From NCBI RefSeq assembly GCF_000772955.1, contig NZ_JPVO01000055.1, forward strand, positions 248,001 to 312,000: a stretch of 64,000 nucleotides of DNA, written 5' to 3'. Origin of the DNA: Ureibacillus sinduriensis BLB-1 = JCM 15800. GTDB lineage: Bacteria; Bacillota; Bacilli; Bacillales_A; Planococcaceae. The notes under the pieces were generated by a model. The model saw only the letters and a list, made by a program, of their open reading frames with translations, was not told where the DNA came from and did not search any database. A program made the position numbers and the translations under genes. Positions within the stretch are counted from its first letter, which is position 1, and every line of letters starts with the position of its first letter. Positions 41,071 through 59,199 of the stretch are shown piece by piece.

Positions 41071-43500
41071 ATGACCAAATTAAGAGTTCATGAATATGCG
41101 AAAAAAGTAAATAAATCAAGTAAAGAAGTAATCGAAGAGCTTAAAAAGCTAAACGTTACTGTGTCTAATCATATGTCGACGCTTGAAAGTGATGCTGTTA
41201 CAAAATTGGATTCTGTTTTTAAAGGATCTTCTAATTCTGCACCAAGAAACACAGAAGCACGACAAGAGAAGAACCAGGCTTCTTCAAGTGGTCAAAGGGC
41301 ACAATCCAACGAGCAATCGAATCGCCCGAATCGTCCGGCGAATGGTTCGTCGAATAGACCGTCTAATGGGCAAAATCGTCCGGCCAATGGTTCAACAAAC
41401 CGACCATCAAATAATTCATCAAACAGAACGTCAAATGGCTCAGCAAATAGACCATCAAACGGCCCATCAAACAGACCGGCCAATAACAATTCAACGAATC
41501 GTCCATCGAACAATTCGTCTAATGAACAAAGATCAACGGCACAAAACAGTGGCGAAAAATTTAAGAATGCAAAAGGTAACCAAAATCGAAATATGTCCCA
41601 AAATAATAATAATAACAACTCAAACAACAACAAAAATAAAGGCGGCTTTAACAATCAACAACGCAAAAAGCCGGGTATTCACGGAGGCAAACGCCGCCAT
41701 CCAAAGACACATCAACCAACTATTCCACAAGCTCCAAAAGAGCTGCCGGAAAAAATTACGTTTTATGAGTCTCTATCCGTTGCAGAATTAGCGAAAAAGC
41801 TTCACAGAGAACCATCTGAAATCATCAAAAAATTGTTCATGTTAGGCGTTATGGCAACGATTAACCAGGAATTGGACAAAGATGCAATCGAGCTGATCTG
41901 TGCTGAGTACGGCGTAGAAGTAGAAGAAGAAGTGCGTATTGATAAAACAGACTTGGATGTTTACTTCGACCAAACAGAGGTAGTTGATGAACAACAAGTA
42001 ATACGTCCTCCGGTTGTAACAATCATGGGTCACGTGGACCATGGTAAAACAACATTACTTGACTCAATCCGTAATTCAAAAGTAACTGCTGGTGAAGCAG
42101 GCGGAATTACGCAACATATTGGTGCATACCAAGTAAAAATCGATGACAAAAAAATTACGTTCCTTGATACTCCAGGACATGCTGCATTTACAACGATGCG
42201 TGCACGTGGTGCGAGCATTACCGATCTAGCAATTATCGTTGTTGCCGCTGATGATGGTGTGATGCCACAAACAGTCGAAGCAATCAACCATGCGAAAGCT
42301 GCCGAAGTGCCAATTATTGTTGCAGTTAATAAAATGGATAAGCCATCTGCGAATCCAGATCGCGTAATGCAAGAATTGACTGAACACGGCTTGGTGCCAG
42401 AAGATTGGGGCGGCGATACAATTTTCGTGCCAATATCTGCCTTGAAAGGCGAGGGTATTGATACGCTTTTAGAGATGATACTATTAGTGTCTGAAGTCGC
42501 TGAATTAAAAGCAAATCCAAGTCGTTCAGCTATCGGTACAGTTATTGAAGCACAACTGGATAAAGGCCGTGGCTCTGTTGCAACATTACTAGTTCAAGAT
42601 GGAACTTTACGTGTTGGTGACCCAATTGTAGTAGGTCATGCTTATGGACGTGTACGTGCGATGGTAAATGATATTGGACGCCGAGTAAAAGAAGCGGGTC
42701 CTTCAACTCCAGTTGAAATCACTGGTATCAACGAAGTGCCGCAAGCAGGTGACCGTTTCGTAGTCTTCGAAGATGAGAAAACTGCCCGCCAAGTGGGTGA
42801 ATCTCGTGCAATGACGGCAATCCAGGCAAACCGTTCTGAGAAACAACGCGTAACATTAGATAACCTATTTGAACAAATGTCCCATGGCGAAGTTAAGGAA
42901 TTAAACTTAATCGTAAAAGCCGATGTTCAAGGTACTGTTGAAGCAATGGCTGCATCATTGATGAAAATCGAGGTAGCAGGCGTTAACGTAAAAATCATCC
43001 ACACTGGTGCAGGTGCAATTACAGAATCTGATATTTCGTTAGCTGCAGCATCAAACGCTATCGTAATTGGATTCAACGTTCGTCCTGACGTAAATGCAAA
43101 ACGTGCTGCCGATGAAGAAGGCGTTGATATTCGATTACATCGCATTATTTACAAAGTAATCGAAGAAATCGAAGCAGCGATGAAAGGAATGCTGGATCCA
43201 GAATTTGAGGAAAAAATTATTGGCCAAGCAGAAGTCCGTCAAACGATTAAAGTATCAAAAGTTGGTACAATCGCTGGTTCTTATGTAACTGAAGGTAAAG
43301 TAACGCGTGATTCAGGCGTTCGTATCATTCGCGAAGGAATCGTTGTATTTGAAGGTGAATTAGATTCGCTAAAACGTTTCAAAGACGATGCAAAAGAAGT
43401 TGCAAAAGGTTACGAATGTGGTATTACAATTAAAAACTTCAATGACATCAAAGAAGGCGATATTATCGAAGCCTTCGTTATGGAAGAAATTAAACGATAA
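41071..43500 (+). CDS. infB: Translation initiation factor IF-2
   Basis: 809 residues. N-terminal IF2N domain ([20 protein letters not shown]), then a low-complexity linker (about 80-210) made of repeated NRPSN/NRPAN units and a basic, Asn-rich tract, a second IF2N domain (about 230-285), and the GTPase with [20 protein letters not shown] and NKMD. It places initiator tRNA on the 30S subunit. The NRPxN repeats are far more regular than the usual charged linker. Confidence 0.97.
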
Positions 43501-54381: not shown

Positions 54382-55284
54382 GTGGACTTAGGTCGAGTTG
54401 CTACTGCCATGATTACCCCATTCCACGATAATGGAGCAATTAATTATGAAGTAGCAGAACGAATAATTGAGCACTTAATATCAAATGGTACTGACTCAAT
54501 TGTGGTATGCGGGACGACAGGAGAGACCCCAACATTATCAATTTCGGAAAAGCGAGCTTTTATTAACTTTACAATAAAGAAAGTCAATAAGCGTATTCCG
54601 GTTATTGCGGGTGTCGGTTACAATGACACCGCATACACAATCGAAGCAACGAAAGTGGTTGAAGCTTTTGGTGCTGACGGCATCATGGTCGTGGCACCTT
54701 TCTATAACAAGCCAAACCAAAGAGGGATTTACGCCCATTTTGAGGCTGTTGCAAATACAACGGATTTACCGATTGTCGTGTACAATGTCCCAGGACGCAC
54801 GGGGGTCAATATCACAGCTGACACAACCATTGCATTGAGTAAAATTCCGAATATACGAATTGTGAAGGAAGCAAGTGGCAGTTTGGAACAGATGACGGAA
54901 ATTTTAAGAGGCGTTCCCGATGATACGTTTGTTTATAGTGGGGATGACGCCCTAACTTTGCCCCTCGTTTCGATAGGGGGCAGAGGGGTGATTTCCGTTG
55001 CTTCCCATGTAATCGGAAACGAAATGCAAGAAATGATCCGCGCCTATGAAGAAGGCCGACACAAAGTCGCACAAAGCTACCATCAAGCGATACTGCCACT
55101 GGCCAAACAATTATTCGTAGATCCAAACCCAGTCCCGGTTAAATACGCACTAAGTAAACTAGGTTTCCCTGTCCAGCATGTCCGCCTACCATTAGTAGGC
55201 TTGTTGGAAGAAGACAAAAAGAACTACGATAAAATCTGGGAAGAATTTGAAGAAAAAGTGCAAGAAATAAAGAGCCACTCGTGA
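54382..55284 (+). CDS. dapA: 4-hydroxy-tetrahydrodipicolinate synthase
   Basis: 300 residues from GTG 54382 (ribosome site AAGGGGTG). Schiff-base lysine K162 (IRIVKEASGSLEQM), YNVPGRTGVN and VVCGTTGETPTLS. It condenses pyruvate with aspartate semialdehyde, the branch point to lysine, peptidoglycan and dipicolinate. Confidence 0.97.
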   Translation: MDLGRVATAMITPFHDNGAINYEVAERIIEHLISNGTDSIVVCGTTGETPTLSISEKRAFINFTIKKVNKRIPVIAGVGYNDTAYTIEATKVVEAFGADGIMVVAPFYNKPNQRGIYAHFEAVANTTDLPIVVYNVPGRTGVNITADTTIALSKIPNIRIVKEASGSLEQMTEILRGVPDDTFVYSGDDALTLPLVSIGGRGVISVASHVIGNEMQEMIRAYEEGRHKVAQSYHQAILPLAKQLFVDPNPVPVKYALSKLGFPVQHVRLPLVGLLEEDKKNYDKIWEEFEEKVQEIKSHS

Positions 55285-55359: not shown

Positions 55360-56265
55360 TTATTCAAAGTGCATTCTTCGGAGAATGTCAGTTGATTTAA
55401 AATTCTTTTTAAGAATCCTTAAAATCCTTCTCCTCGAGTCGATGATCTGACACCATTCATATATCTTACTTGTCGTCACTTTTTCATTCGGAAAGAGGAG
55501 TTTAAATTCCTTTACATTTCGCACTACTGCTGATTCAACTGATTCTTTATTCCCACAGGAGGTACAAGTGCACTTCTTGCCTTGGACGGAAATGGCAAAG
55601 GACTGGCAGCACGCACAATACATTCCTTTACGTAACTGATGATAATGGTAAGGGGGGAGCTGTTGGTATGGATTTTCATCAATATGTAAAGTCAGTAACC
55701 GTTCAGCTGTTTTTATATGATCTTCAGGCACTTCGGATTCACTGGAGTGAAGTTTTTTTATAAAACCATTTAATTGAGATGGAAAAATAAAAGGTACACC
55801 GTGAGGAGCTTGATATAAAGTAAACTCGGGATTTATAAAGATTACCAAGGGGTGAATGGAAGTCTTGAACTGAAATTTTAAGAACAATTGACGGAGTAAG
55901 GATTCGGTTCTGTATAACTGAATTAAGGGGTTGGTTATTTCTGCTTGATCTTTTAGAAATATTTTATCTGTTTTGTAGCTGTAATTTCCAGAGTAATTTT
56001 TAATTTCTAGAAGGTAAACGGCATCTTTCAACATAATCAAAGAATCAATTTGAAAGGTTTGGTTATTTACTTTGAGTAACAAGTCATTTAATACGAGACA
56101 CTCACACTCTATGTTTTCCAGAAGTAAGTCAAATAAAAGTTCACCTTCAAAACCCTTTTTAAGGCTAATGTAGTTTTGCTGGTAGGCCATGGACAAATCC
56201 ATACGATTTCTAAGTGTCTTTAAAATTATTAATTCTTTAGGTTCGGTTCTAGGTTTGAATATCAT
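55360..56265 (-). CDS. NERD-domain nuclease-like protein with zinc ribbon
   Basis: 301 residues, the only confident - strand gene. The NERD domain spans about residues 36-150 (GFEGELLFDLL, QIDSLIML, YLLEIKNYSGNY), with the PD-(D/E)xK-type residues E42, D74, E87 and K89 in place. A zinc-ribbon-like Cys cluster follows (C217-x-C219-C220 and C232-x-C234-x-x-C237), then a basic helical C-terminus. Such proteins are common and scattered in Bacillaceae; the function is unknown, with nuclease or DNA-binding activity expected. Its place between dapA and rnjB suggests insertion. Confidence 0.85.
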   Translation of the reverse strand: MIFKPRTEPKELIILKTLRNRMDLSMAYQQNYISLKKGFEGELLFDLLLENIECECLVLNDLLLKVNNQTFQIDSLIMLKDAVYLLEIKNYSGNYSYKTDKIFLKDQAEITNPLIQLYRTESLLRQLFLKFQFKTSIHPLVIFINPEFTLYQAPHGVPFIFPSQLNGFIKKLHSSESEVPEDHIKTAERLLTLHIDENPYQQLPPYHYHQLRKGMYCACCQSFAISVQGKKCTCTSCGNKESVESAVVRNVKEFKLLFPNEKVTTSKIYEWCQIIDSRRRILRILKKNFKSTDILRRMHFE

Positions 56266-56280
56266 GCCATGTATTGCTCC
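56262..56280 (-). promoter_or_regulatory. Ribosome site with a two-codon upstream frame before the NERD gene
   Basis: On the - strand GGAG (56280-56277) is six bases from ATG 56270, which begins ATG-GCA-TGA; the TGA overlaps the ATG of the NERD gene at 56265 (ATGA). The real start is 11 bases from the ribosome site, the two-codon frame is at the better distance. Coupled re-initiation is possible. Confidence 0.4.
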
Positions 56281-56296
56281 TTTCTTTTTTTATTAT

Positions 56297-56326
56297 TTTA
56301 TAAGGAATAATTAAAAATTGTAACAA
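56297..56326 (-). promoter_or_regulatory. Promoter of the NERD gene
   Basis: On the - strand TTGTTA (56326-56321), an 18-base spacer and TATAAA (56302-56297). It lies 32 bases upstream of the start codon. Confidence 0.55.
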
Positions 56327-56532
56327 AGGTTTCCAAAAAACAACTTTGGCATTTCGAACAAAGGAATAGGGTACATGTAAACAGGCTATTTAAATCGGAG
56401 AATTTGGAGCTAGAACGCCCCTCGAGATGGGGGAAGAGTAAACGTAGGGAAGAATGCTTGGGAGGGCACAAAAACAGGCGGCTTTAGCTAACGAAAAGGC
56501 TATGGCAAGTAAGTGCCGCTAAATAGAACGGT
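56327..56532. other. Gene-free flank of the repeat array
   Basis: No supported gene. The last 50 bases (56483-56532) show faint similarity to the array unit (AAGT...CCGCTAAATAGAAC against AAGTGACACCAAACAGGC), so decayed outer units may be present. AAACAGGC also occurs near 56378 and 56472. Confidence 0.4.
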
Positions 56533-57312
56533 AATAAGACAAATCGGAGGAGCATGGGCCGAGAGATGTCACCAAACAGGCGGGAATTAGACAAATCGAT
56601 GTAGGAGGAGCCAAGAAGTGTCACCTAAGAAGCTGCAATAAGACATATCGAAGAAGCAGGGGCCGGGAAGTGACACCAAACAGGCATCAATAAGACAAAT
56701 CGGAGGAGCACGAGCCGGGAAGTGACACCAAACAGGCATCAATAAGACAAATCGGAGGAACACGAGCCGAGAAGTGACACCAAACAAGCATCAATAAGAC
56801 AAATCGGAGGAGCGCGTGCCGAGAAGTGTCACAAAACAAACGGCAATAAGACAAACCGGAGGAGCACGAGCCGAGAAGTGACACCAAACAAGCATCAATA
56901 AGACAAACCGGAGGAGCACGAGCCGAGAAGTGACACCAAACAAACGGCAATAAGACAAATCGGAGGAGCACGAGCCGGGAAGTGACACCAAACAAGCATC
57001 AATAAGACAAACCGAAGAAGCATGAGCCAAGAATTGTCACCAAACAAGCAGCAACAAGACAAATCGGAGGAGCATGGACCGAGAGATGTCACCAAACAGG
57101 CATCAATAAGACAAACCGAAGAAGCATGAGCCAAGAATTGTCACCAAACAAGCAGCAACAAGACAAATCGGAGGAGCACGAGCCAAGAATTGACACCAAA
57201 CAGGCAGCAATAAGACAAACCGAAGAAGCATGAACCAAGAAGTGACACCAAACAGGCATCAATAAGACAAACCGAGGAAGCATGAACCAAGAAGTGTCAC
57301 CAAACAACCATT
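56533..57312. repeat. Tandem array of fifteen 52-bp units
   Basis: Fifteen head-to-tail units of exactly 52 bases with no insertion or deletion, starting at 56533, 56585, 56637 and so on to 57261, plus AATAAGAC of a sixteenth. A typical unit begins AATAAGACAAATCGGAGGAG and continues with CACGAGCC, a GAAGTGACACC box, AAACA and a variable last five bases (GCATC, ACGGC, GCAGC). The core TGWCAC occurs in all fifteen units (TGACAC in eight, TGTCAC in seven). Units 10 and 12 are identical. Outer units 1-3 are the most diverged. Frames on the - strand are open only because the unit is poor in stops; 52 is not a multiple of three and no start or ribosome site fits. Not a CRISPR: no unique spacers. 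Confidence 0.95.
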
Positions 57313-57393
57313 AATAAGACCATTCTGGATAACAAGCCCCCTATTCTATCACTAGTAAGTTACCAAAACATGCTCCACCAAACTGTACACCTA

Positions 57394-57431
57394 CCCCCAT
57401 CCCAAAAACACCAGACCCTCCCCAAACCCCC
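57394..57431 (-). other. G-run cluster, potential G-quadruplex
   Basis: On the + strand five C runs (57394-57398, 57401-57403, 57416-57418, 57420-57423, 57427-57431) lie within 38 bases; the - strand therefore has five G runs of three to five with loops of 3, 1, 12 and 2. The whole stretch 57380-57435 is nearly free of G on the + strand, a strong local skew. It lies between the array and the rnjB promoter. Confidence 0.6.
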
Positions 57432-57458
57432 ATACTTGTAAAAAATTCGCTTTTTTAT

Positions 57459-57487
57459 TTGTGCTTCATCCGTGGACACCGTATAAT
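57459..57487 (+). promoter_or_regulatory. Promoter of rnjB
   Basis: TTGTGC (57459-57464), a 17-base spacer and a perfect TATAAT (57482-57487). A second TATAAT (57511-57516) is too close to the ribosome site and has no -35. Leader of about 38 bases. Confidence 0.65.
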
Positions 57488-57531
57488 GGGGTATAAGTGG
57501 TTGCGTTCGGTATAATATAGGAGGAAATCAA

Positions 57532-59199
57532 GTGACAAAGACTAAAAACGAAGTAATCCGAGTAATCCCTCTTGGTGGAGTTGGAGAAATCGGGAAATCG
57601 ATGTATGTAATTGAAATCGATGACGAACTTTTCATTGTTGACAGTGGATTAATGTTCCCGGAAGATGAAATGCTTGGAATAGATATCGTCATCCCTGATA
57701 TTACATACTTAGAAGAAAATAAAGAGCGTGTAAAAGGGATCTTCCTAACACATGGACATGAAGATGCAATTGGTTCAATTGCTTATGTACTACAAAAAAT
57801 TAAAGCGCCTGTATATGGTTCCAAATTGACGGTAGCCTTGGCAAAAGAGCATTTAAAAGATTTACAAGTTTCACAGCCTGTGAAGTTTTTTGAAGTAACA
57901 AATAGAAGCCGTATGAATTTTAATTCGACGTATGTAACATTCTTCCATACGACGCATAGTATTCCAGATTCGTTGGGAATTGTTTTCCATACTTCGGAAG
58001 GGGCGATCGTTCATACTGGGGAATTTAAATTTGACCAGTCGGCAAAAGGCAAATTTAAACCGGATATTGCGAAGATGGCACAGTTAGGTGAAGAAGGCGT
58101 ATTTATGTTGCTTTCTGAATCCACTGAAGCAGAACGTCCAGGCCATACAACGAGCGAAGTCGAGATTGAAGAGAAACTAGCAAAATACTTCCATGCTGCA
58201 CCTGCCCGTATACTTGTGGCTGTGTATGCATCGAATTTCATTCGCATTCAGCAGGTTTTCAACCATGCTCAGGAATCAGGTCGAAAAGTGGCCGTTGTTG
58301 GAAAGAGCCTAGAAAAAGTAATCGATATCGGTTTAAATCTTGGCTATCTAACAGTGGACGAAACAACACTTATTCCTGTCAACACAATTCAGAAATATCC
58401 GGATGAGGAGTTAATCATTCTGGTGACAAGCAATCAGGGCGAGCCCTTGGAAGCAATCGATAAAATTGTCCGTAAGCAACACCGTGATATCCGCATAAAA
58501 GATACGGACACAGTGTTAATTACATTTACACCATCACCAGGCATGGAAGTGCAAATGGGAACAGCAATGAACAACCTTGCAAAAGCAGGGGCGAACGTCT
58601 TGGCAGCTGACAAGAAAATTCATGTTTCAGGTCATGGCAGCCAGGAAGATTTAAAAATGATGCTGAACTTGATGAAACCAAAATACTTTATCCCAATCCA
58701 GGGCGAATACAGAATGCTGATTGCCCATTCCAAACTTGCTCAGCAAGTGGGGATGAAAAAGTCACAAATCTTTATCGCCGACAAAGGGGATATCGTGGAA
58801 TACAAAAATGGTAAAATGAGAATGAGCGGCCGTGTTCAAGCAGGCAATGTCTTAATTGACGGAATTGGTGTAGGTGACGTAGGGAACATCGTCTTAAGAG
58901 ATCGTAAATTATTATCACAGGACGGAATTTTCATCGTTGTTGTTACATTAAATCGTGCTCAAAAAAGAATTGCTTCCGGCCCGGAAATTTTATCGCGCGG
59001 ATTTGTTTATGTGCGTGAGTCAGAGGAGTTAATCCTTGAAGCTACTGAACTTGCACGAACAGTTATTGAAAAATATGTCAATAAAGATACTTTTGAATGG
59101 ACAAACATTAAACAAGAAATCCGTGATACACTAAATGCTTATTTATTCCAAAAAACAAAGCGCCGCCCAATGATTATCCCAATAATAATGGAATACTAA
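57532..59199 (+). CDS. rnjB: Ribonuclease J2
   Basis: 555 residues from GTG 57532 (ribosome site TAGGAGGAA). Metallo-beta-lactamase/beta-CASP RNase J. The metal motif reads HGHEDA (74-79): the last His of HxHxDH is Ala, as expected for the weakly active J2 partner of J1. VHTGEFKFDQS, the beta-CASP stretch VTSNQGEPLEA and HVSGHGSQEDLKMML are visible. Position corresponds to ymfA of B. subtilis. Confidence 0.93.
   Translation: MTKTKNEVIRVIPLGGVGEIGKSMYVIEIDDELFIVDSGLMFPEDEMLGIDIVIPDITYLEENKERVKGIFLTHGHEDAIGSIAYVLQKIKAPVYGSKLTVALAKEHLKDLQVSQPVKFFEVTNRSRMNFNSTYVTFFHTTHSIPDSLGIVFHTSEGAIVHTGEFKFDQSAKGKFKPDIAKMAQLGEEGVFMLLSESTEAERPGHTTSEVEIEEKLAKYFHAAPARILVAVYASNFIRIQQVFNHAQESGRKVAVVGKSLEKVIDIGLNLGYLTVDETTLIPVNTIQKYPDEELIILVTSNQGEPLEAIDKIVRKQHRDIRIKDTDTVLITFTPSPGMEVQMGTAMNNLAKAGANVLAADKKIHVSGHGSQEDLKMMLNLMKPKYFIPIQGEYRMLIAHSKLAQQVGMKKSQIFIADKGDIVEYKNGKMRMSGRVQAGNVLIDGIGVGDVGNIVLRDRKLLSQDGIFIVVVTLNRAQKRIASGPEILSRGFVYVRESEELILEATELARTVIEKYVNKDTFEWTNIKQEIRDTLNAYLFQKTKRRPMIIPIIMEY

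Follow-up and report, generated by a model that had tools for sequence, protein, structure and literature searches.

A tandem array of 52-bp units in Ureibacillus sinduriensis and the NERD-domain gene beside it almost certainly form a single module. The array lies in the 64,000-nucleotide stretch of DNA that was analysed here (the window). We refer to the gene as NZH, for its NERD domain, zinc ribbon and winged-helix-like C-terminus. Across the genomes that we searched, 62 of 69 distinct NZH genes have an array of period 51 or 52 bp within 0.56 kb, and four of the other seven are cut by a contig end. The gene-array pair is apparently widespread in bacteria and undescribed: the portions of the open-access literature available to us describe neither NERD genes with arrays nor a 52-bp array from Bacillus. 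An earlier note on this DNA, made from the letters of the sequence, had described the array and missed both the genome-wide family of such arrays and the partner gene.

A family of phased palindromic arrays

Tandem Repeats Finder, the check that the earlier note had suggested, reported one strong array in the window, at 56533-57320, with a period of 52, 15.2 copies, 84% matches, 0% indels and a score of 944. This confirmed the fifteen indel-free units that had been read from the sequence. The earlier note was also right that units differ by up to about a third of their positions, as the fifteen 52-mers have 35 to 52 of their 52 bases in common pairwise (mean identity 82.9%). The array strand is strongly A-rich (A 339, T 69, C 176, G 196). 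The array is intergenic, located between a divergent 301-aa open reading frame (55360-56265, minus strand), which is the NZH gene, and the RNase J gene rnjB (57532-59199, plus strand); a DapA-like gene (54382-55284) and an FtsK/SpoIIIE gene are also found nearby (all assigned with Pfam). One listed reading frame of at least 100 aa lies inside the array, a 102-aa TTG-start frame on the minus strand. We did not take it for a gene, in keeping with the earlier claim that the array has no coding potential. That the array does not match CRISPR also held. Its invariant and variable columns are interleaved, without a long invariant stretch, which differs from a conserved repeat separated by unique spacers of constant length. 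By eye, a decayed unit-like stretch is visible to the left of the array, near 56465. Elsewhere in the window, a 12/24-bp repeat (CAAACAGACCAT) is located at 41396-41477, within an 809-aa open reading frame (41071-43500).

Table 1. Features of the NZH gene and its array, in window coordinates
Feature	Position	Strand	Basis
NZH gene: 301-aa NERD protein with Cys4 zinc ribbon and winged-helix-like domain	55360..56265	-	Pfam NERD PF08378, E 2.2e-17; divergent from rnjB, array between
NERD domain, residues 37-144, with PD-(D/E)XK-like residues D74, E87-x-K89, Q116	55834..56157	-	Pfam; conservation in 39 rows
Cys4 zinc ribbon, C217, C220, C234, C237	55555..55617	-	Conserved in 38-39 of 39 rows
C-terminal winged-helix-like domain, residues 239-301	55363..55551	-	AlphaFold; VIA-align Z 5-6 to winged helix proteins
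Tandem array of fifteen 52-bp units, skeleton GACA-N25-TGTC-N19	56533..57312	+	Tandem Repeats Finder; right half TGAC in 8/15 units
Start of truncated 16th unit (AATAAGAC)	57313..57320	+	Tandem Repeats Finder and unit cutting
First 27-bp TGTC-N19-GACA element (palindrome position; arms degenerate in the window array)	56567..56593	+	TGTC-19-GACA positions

A search of the same genome with two units of the window array, another check that had been suggested, revealed more arrays. Their units are unlike, and they share the skeleton GACA-N25-TGTC-N19 at a period of 52 bp even where the rest of the unit is little alike. The skeleton equals its reverse complement, which places two dyads in every 52 bp. 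A 16-base pattern of four skeleton motifs matched 115 times in this genome, while the same pattern read backwards matched neither here nor anywhere in the 261 genomes surveyed. The earlier note had said that identical arrays scattered at many loci with variable period would speak against its reading; the arrays that we found are many, non-identical and nearly constant in period.

A 20-base version of the pattern, scanned over species genomes, identified at least 118 stretches. Among the matches listed, most titles belong to Bacillaceae and related Bacilli; Trichococcus (2), Sedimentibacter (2), one Paenibacillus record and one genome titled Chryseobacterium are also represented. The last of these, Chryseobacterium sp. 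ISL-80 (loci L036, L048, L121, L145 and L147), has arrays like those of Bacillus ISL strains and may be a mislabelled genome of Bacillus type. An apparent enrichment of arrays near the replication terminus was dropped, as the two genomes concerned do not start at dnaA.

We collected 117 arrays of at least three units from 112 of 124 loci. Of 649 single steps within these arrays, 603 measure 52 bp and 42 measure 51 or 53 bp, a regularity that is partly by construction since the 118 stretches were selected with a 52-bp pattern spanning 2.5 units. The arrays beside NZH genes of the order were not selected by this pattern, and their period is nevertheless 51 or 52 bp (104 in one case) despite widely differing module sequences. 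Furthermore, the GACA-29-TGTC-23 spacing is retained where the remainder of the unit has diverged. Both results support the earlier suggestion that the spacing itself is selected.

Outside the tetramers, the 117 arrays have no strongly conserved column. Six inner-arm positions, adjoining TGTC on one side and GACA on the other, are nonetheless complementary in a fraction of 0.51-0.81 of arrays, compared to 0.27-0.43 expected (z 5.8-9.8, treating arrays as independent though several share one genome), and this excess is gone when the partner is slid by one position. The 25-bp spacer shows complementarity weakly, at its first pair only (z 4.1). A typical unit thus holds a 27-bp palindrome with 10-bp arms and a 7-bp middle (10-7-10). 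The outer bases vary around the same geometry (among them TGTC, GGTC, GCGT, GTGC and GGGC), with the best mean scores at gaps of 5, 7 and 9. Palindromes are strong at L155 and L162, for example. In the window array the palindrome is poor (5 of 10 pairs, not above shuffles) and TGAC replaces TGTC as the right half-site in 8 of 15 units; the window array is thus a decayed or divergent member of the family. Among 70 arrays, similarity is higher within than between genomes for both inner arms (0.553 versus 0.370) and linkers (0.434 versus 0.354), and both excesses are above all 2000 of 2000 permutations. The L034 array alternates unit types TGTCC...GGGACA and TGTCAC...CGTGACA, giving a 104-bp super-period, and in L045, L075, L098 and L118 the 25-bp linker starts with GCTTT and ends with AAAGC or AAACC, a second short inverted repeat.

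Palindromes of this shape could also act as RNA, as tandem hairpins in a transcript. The 10-bp arms and 7-nt middle look like hairpins and arm complementarity is conserved. On the strand of codirectional genes, G.T mismatches outnumber A.C mismatches (44 versus 29, p 0.10), and 32 of 49 arrays have a purine-rich linker (p 0.04). Overall, however, the two mismatch types are about equally frequent (91 versus 78) and are not polarised per array (chi-square 92 on 92 arrays). An exact 52-bp period also has no obvious reason in RNA, and Rfam gave no match to the arrays in 12 loci at gathering scores, or in window positions 55500-58500 at E values up to 1. The RNA reading is thus supported by neither mismatch types nor Rfam, and we regard it as very improbable. 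Two Rfam matches were found elsewhere in the 12 loci, a tRNA and BsrG.

NZH genes accompany the arrays

To identify partners of the arrays, we compared 813 open reading frames from 111 array loci and the window. By eye, some recurrent clusters were large common families, such as sensor proteins, ABC transporters and short-chain dehydrogenases, and others were reading frames that lie within arrays. A cluster of NERD proteins lay directly beside GACA arrays in six loci, with the window gene among them, and these proteins share the NERD domain, the four cysteines and the C-terminal domain. A profile (A1) built from five of them was searched against 261 genomes of the order and separated NZH (E value 5e-79 or better) from other full-length NERD matches (1e-34 or worse).

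NZH was detected in 22 of the 261 genomes. It is present in all 12 genomes with GACA/TGTC arrays compared to 10 of the 249 without, the remaining 239 having neither (Fisher p 4e-15, relatedness ignored). In nine of the 10 carriers that lack GACA arrays, NZH adjoins a 52-bp array with a different sequence, and in the tenth the gene is at a contig edge. At 20 of the 22 NZH loci, Tandem Repeats Finder identified an adjoining array with a period of 52 (or 104), the other two having the gene at a contig edge. When second copies are included (and the fragment G143:C5 is left out), an array lies 7-553 bp from 35 of the order's 40 NZH genes, with periods of 52 (30 arrays), 51 (4) or 104 (1). For this count and that of the 30 loci below, rows near period 52 or its multiples were kept. 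The array is on the 3' side of the gene in 24 cases and on the 5' side in 11. Four of the five genes without an array have their 3' side cut by a contig end. The fifth, L196, has ample flanks and is a true exception.

Beyond this first survey, 30 named pattern-positive genomes from other groups were chosen from the 118 stretches, with one locus each, four of which (L051, L084, L093 and L111) fall below the three-unit rule. All 30 contain NZH (E value 7e-83 or better), with up to nine profile matches at 1e-20 in one genome. Bacillus methanolicus is among the species whose genomes have both arrays and NZH. At 28 of the 30 best NZH loci a 51/52-bp array is present, on the 3' side in 25. L319 and L324 have no array, and as L324 is the best Sedimentibacter copy, the pairing is not shown in Sedimentibacter. 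The combined count given above is of distinct genes: L310, which repeats the gene of L165, is counted once. The genes of L296 and L297 had already appeared in the comparison of reading frames. In 20 control regions of 5 kb, taken from the genomes used to test other NERD genes (see below), there was one repeat with a period of 49-55 bp, a 54-bp one.

This pairing bears on whether the arrays are neutral minisatellites or assembly artefacts, a reading to which we give next to no credence. Slippage does create tandem arrays and some of the arrays are at contig ends. Against this, one period occurs in unlike sequences beside one gene family across genera, arrays are also found in single-contig genomes such as G106, G125 and G131, and the backwards-read pattern had no match in the survey.

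The window NZH scores 64 bits against the NERD profile PF08378 (gathering score 22.1), its only Pfam match at E 0.001. In 39 aligned NZH rows, D74 and K89 are present in all 39 and position 87 is E in 36 and D in 3; these residues, Q116 and the cysteines are near invariant. An AlphaFold model (five sequences) has a pLDDT of 67 overall and of 75-92 per block from residue 211. Residues 55-176 (approximately) of the model align with PD-(D/E)XK nucleases with Z scores of 5-7 (up to 7.1), and residues 239-301 with winged helix proteins with Z scores of up to 6.0. Foldseek with the same model gave no hit under 0.001, and a sequence comparison to solved structures gave two weak hits, in the zinc-ribbon region. 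The Z scores are no more than suggestive of PD-(D/E)XK-like and winged-helix-like folds. NZH looks able to bind and cut DNA. Weak matches to the defence proteins PglW and MkoA were also noted, and to MADS6. Close NZH pairs are under purifying selection (dN/dS about 0.1-0.17), and positive selection was not seen in the five scorable pairs of six. Several NZH genes are broken.

Turnover, site sequences and a proposed mechanism

The region upstream of rnjB was compared in 24 genomes, two of which (G258 and G259) could not be judged there. Six, including that of the window, have NZH and a 52-bp array. The rnjB products of the other five are 95-99% identical to that of the window, but their NZH proteins are only 50-56% identical and their arrays are different. 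The NZH copy of G119 at this site looks frameshifted near its end. In the G000/G113 pair, synonymous sites are saturated in NZH compared to 0.61 in rnjB, which suggests that the two NZH genes are probably replaced alleles rather than simple orthologs. Twelve of the 24 regions have DapA and no 51/52-bp array (among them G264, with a 120-bp repeat), G149 has a 41-bp repeat, and G260, G106 and G261 have arrays with no NZH within 1.5 kb. In G261 (L225), a 52-bp TGTC-type array and a 51-bp GTGCCC-type array lie back to back in one intergenic region.

Arrays occur at many other loci of the same genomes, and close relatives differ by their gain and loss. G000 and G113 both have the L029 array; in G119 two decayed units of it are left, and eight other genomes lack it, although the sequence of one of the eight, G264, stops short of the downstream flank. 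The C32 array (L030) matches the window consensus at 46 of 52 bases. It was not found at the downstream flank in five relatives, in which the upstream flank could not be aligned, so the site is not cleanly empty. Nor did we find a clean insertion flanked by a duplicated target. NZH itself is missing from 8 of 25 genomes of the window's genus.

The divergent NZH genes and arrays beside a conserved rnjB resemble swapped specificity alleles, as would be expected if NZH were a hypervariable sequence-specific nuclease directed at foreign DNA, with the array storing, regulating or decoying it. NERD domains do occur in defence proteins, including those weakly matched above. We nevertheless consider a role in defence or competition distinctly unlikely. 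No methylase was recognised by eye in the protein clusters present at three or more array loci, and no match came near the cut-off of a curated defence family. Arrays dispersed in large numbers at a distance from the gene are not known from defence systems.

To examine how sites relate to proteins, we compared 30 of the 39 modules in the NZH tree, which leaves out gene pieces scoring below 330. The nine others, including the window module, have no array or a palindrome score below 7. Arm similarity averages 0.65 for the 18 module pairs at 60% or higher protein identity, 0.48 for the 417 pairs below 60%, and 0.50 for 15 pairs from the same genome. Four of the 18 have an arm similarity of only 0.25-0.40. 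Protein identity and arm similarity are correlated (Mantel r 0.34, with 1 of 5000 permutations as high), with r values of 0.45 for the C-terminal region and 0.28 for the NERD domain. Sisters in the tree that come from different genomes and have like sites include L155/L156, L162/L199, L164/L166 and L190/L192. Site sequence therefore differs between modules and follows protein relatedness, most closely that of the C-terminal domain.

The covariation of palindromic sites with the C-terminal domain points to dimeric, sequence-specific binding. NZH very probably recognises its sites by sequence, most likely as a dimer. The DNA helix has 10.4 bp per turn, so a period of 51 or 52 bp is about five turns, which suggests helical phasing. 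Under the mechanism that we propose, an NZH dimer would bind each 27-bp palindrome through its winged helix, and the 52-bp period would place successive dimers on one face of the DNA, allowing cooperative binding. The nuclease would then nick or cut within or beside the arrays, and repair would multiply the units and occasionally seed an array elsewhere. Maintenance and spread by the nuclease are suggested by the dispersed arrays, by the lack of GACA arrays in the 239 genomes without NZH, and by array turnover. Taken as a whole, the explanation that we favour is that the arrays are satellites kept and spread by their own enzyme, NZH, and we consider this somewhat probable. For a selfish role in that spread, we judge the chances to be even. 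Tentatively, and with slightly more doubt, these modules may be a new class of chromosomal selfish element in Bacillota, in which a NERD nuclease recognises, builds and spreads its own phased satellite, with a private site for each lineage. An arms race is opposed by the purifying rather than positive selection on close NZH pairs. NZH was absent from the plasmids, phages and viral contigs that were searched, so these offer no route for its spread between cells.

The same pairing would be expected if the host had a function for which the arrays are needed. In such a case NZH would organise the chromosome or regulate genes locally, and the phased arrays would be tethering platforms that help the host, with little or no use of the nuclease fold. 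The regular 52-bp phasing across hundreds of base pairs, the many arrays per genome and the purifying selection on NZH are all consistent with this. So are the gene neighbourhoods: among 80 arrays with two callable neighbours, 24 lie between convergent genes, 49 between codirectional genes and 7, including the window array, between divergent genes (the other 37 of 117 comprise 27 at locus ends and 10 under a naive reading frame), making convergent pairs commoner than divergent ones. The near-invariant catalytic residues, the gain and loss of arrays between close relatives, the genomes of the genus that lack NZH, and the different site sequences of modules within one genome all argue against a host role, which we consider rather unlikely.

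The pairing gives a class of bacterial intergenic tandem repeats a partner and a mechanism that can be tested, and an orphan nuclease family a likely DNA target. Why some bacteria carry such regular minisatellites becomes a directly testable question. If NZH builds its arrays, bacteria own a satellite system that is driven by an enzyme and whose specificity changes. The many natural pairs of protein and site would also reveal how winged helices alter their specificity, and could be a source of new sequence-specific DNA-binding proteins.

Other NERD genes and known repeat systems

NZH has its NERD domain in common with SmdA of Staphylococcus and with PglW. A NERD gene near upp in B. methanolicus is mentioned in the available part of one article, without repeats (PMC12802215). 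In our data (loci L176, L178, L181-L183 and L234-L253), tandem repeats lie no more than 300 bp from 18 of 28 other NERD genes; for 16 of these 18, the periods are 20-22, 40-42, 82-83 or 103 bp, near multiples of two helical turns. Tandem repeats of any kind were found at 19 of the 28 loci compared to 8 of 20 control regions, several of the repeats being of 21 bp. The G239 control region (L272) contains the same word, ACGCATAA, as the array near the G239 NERD gene (L252). What is proposed for NZH may extend to other NERD subfamilies.

Plasmid partition sites and iterons, such as parC-ParR, also place the gene of a DNA-binding protein beside helically phased repeats, as NZH modules do. In contrast, NZH modules are chromosomal and multi-copy and their protein has a nuclease-type domain; no partition ATPase was seen by eye among the recurrent neighbours of array loci.

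CGTC-tagged REPs, as described in the consulted part of their source, are palindromes beside a short tag, which in some cases reads TGTC. This tag takes no part in pairing, the stems measure 8-9 bp and the loops 4-5 nt, and clusters are rare; no dedicated transposase is known there, and the five phyla listed exclude Firmicutes (PMC3733652). In the NZH arrays, TGTC and GACA are paired, the middle is 7 bp and the palindromes are in tandem.

A further likeness is to REP/BIME elements and RAYT (TnpA_REP) tyrosine transposases. According to the accessible parts of two reports, the gene of a DNA-cleaving enzyme is flanked there by short palindromic repeats, which also occur at scattered sites between genes, and the repeat sequences are particular to each enzyme lineage (PMC2817692, PMC3733652). 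NZH genes likewise adjoin palindromes (62 of 69) that are also dispersed, with many arrays per genome. NZH modules fail the defining features of the RAYT-REP family: the protein combines a NERD/PD-(D/E)XK-like domain with a zinc ribbon and a winged helix and is not an IS200/IS605-type tyrosine (Y1) transposase, the sites have no GTAG or CGTC tag and their outer bases belong to the paired arms, and the arrays are head-to-tail, of fixed 51/52-bp period, and in Bacillota. The logic of the NZH module nevertheless appears to resemble that of RAYT-REP, with an unrelated enzyme.
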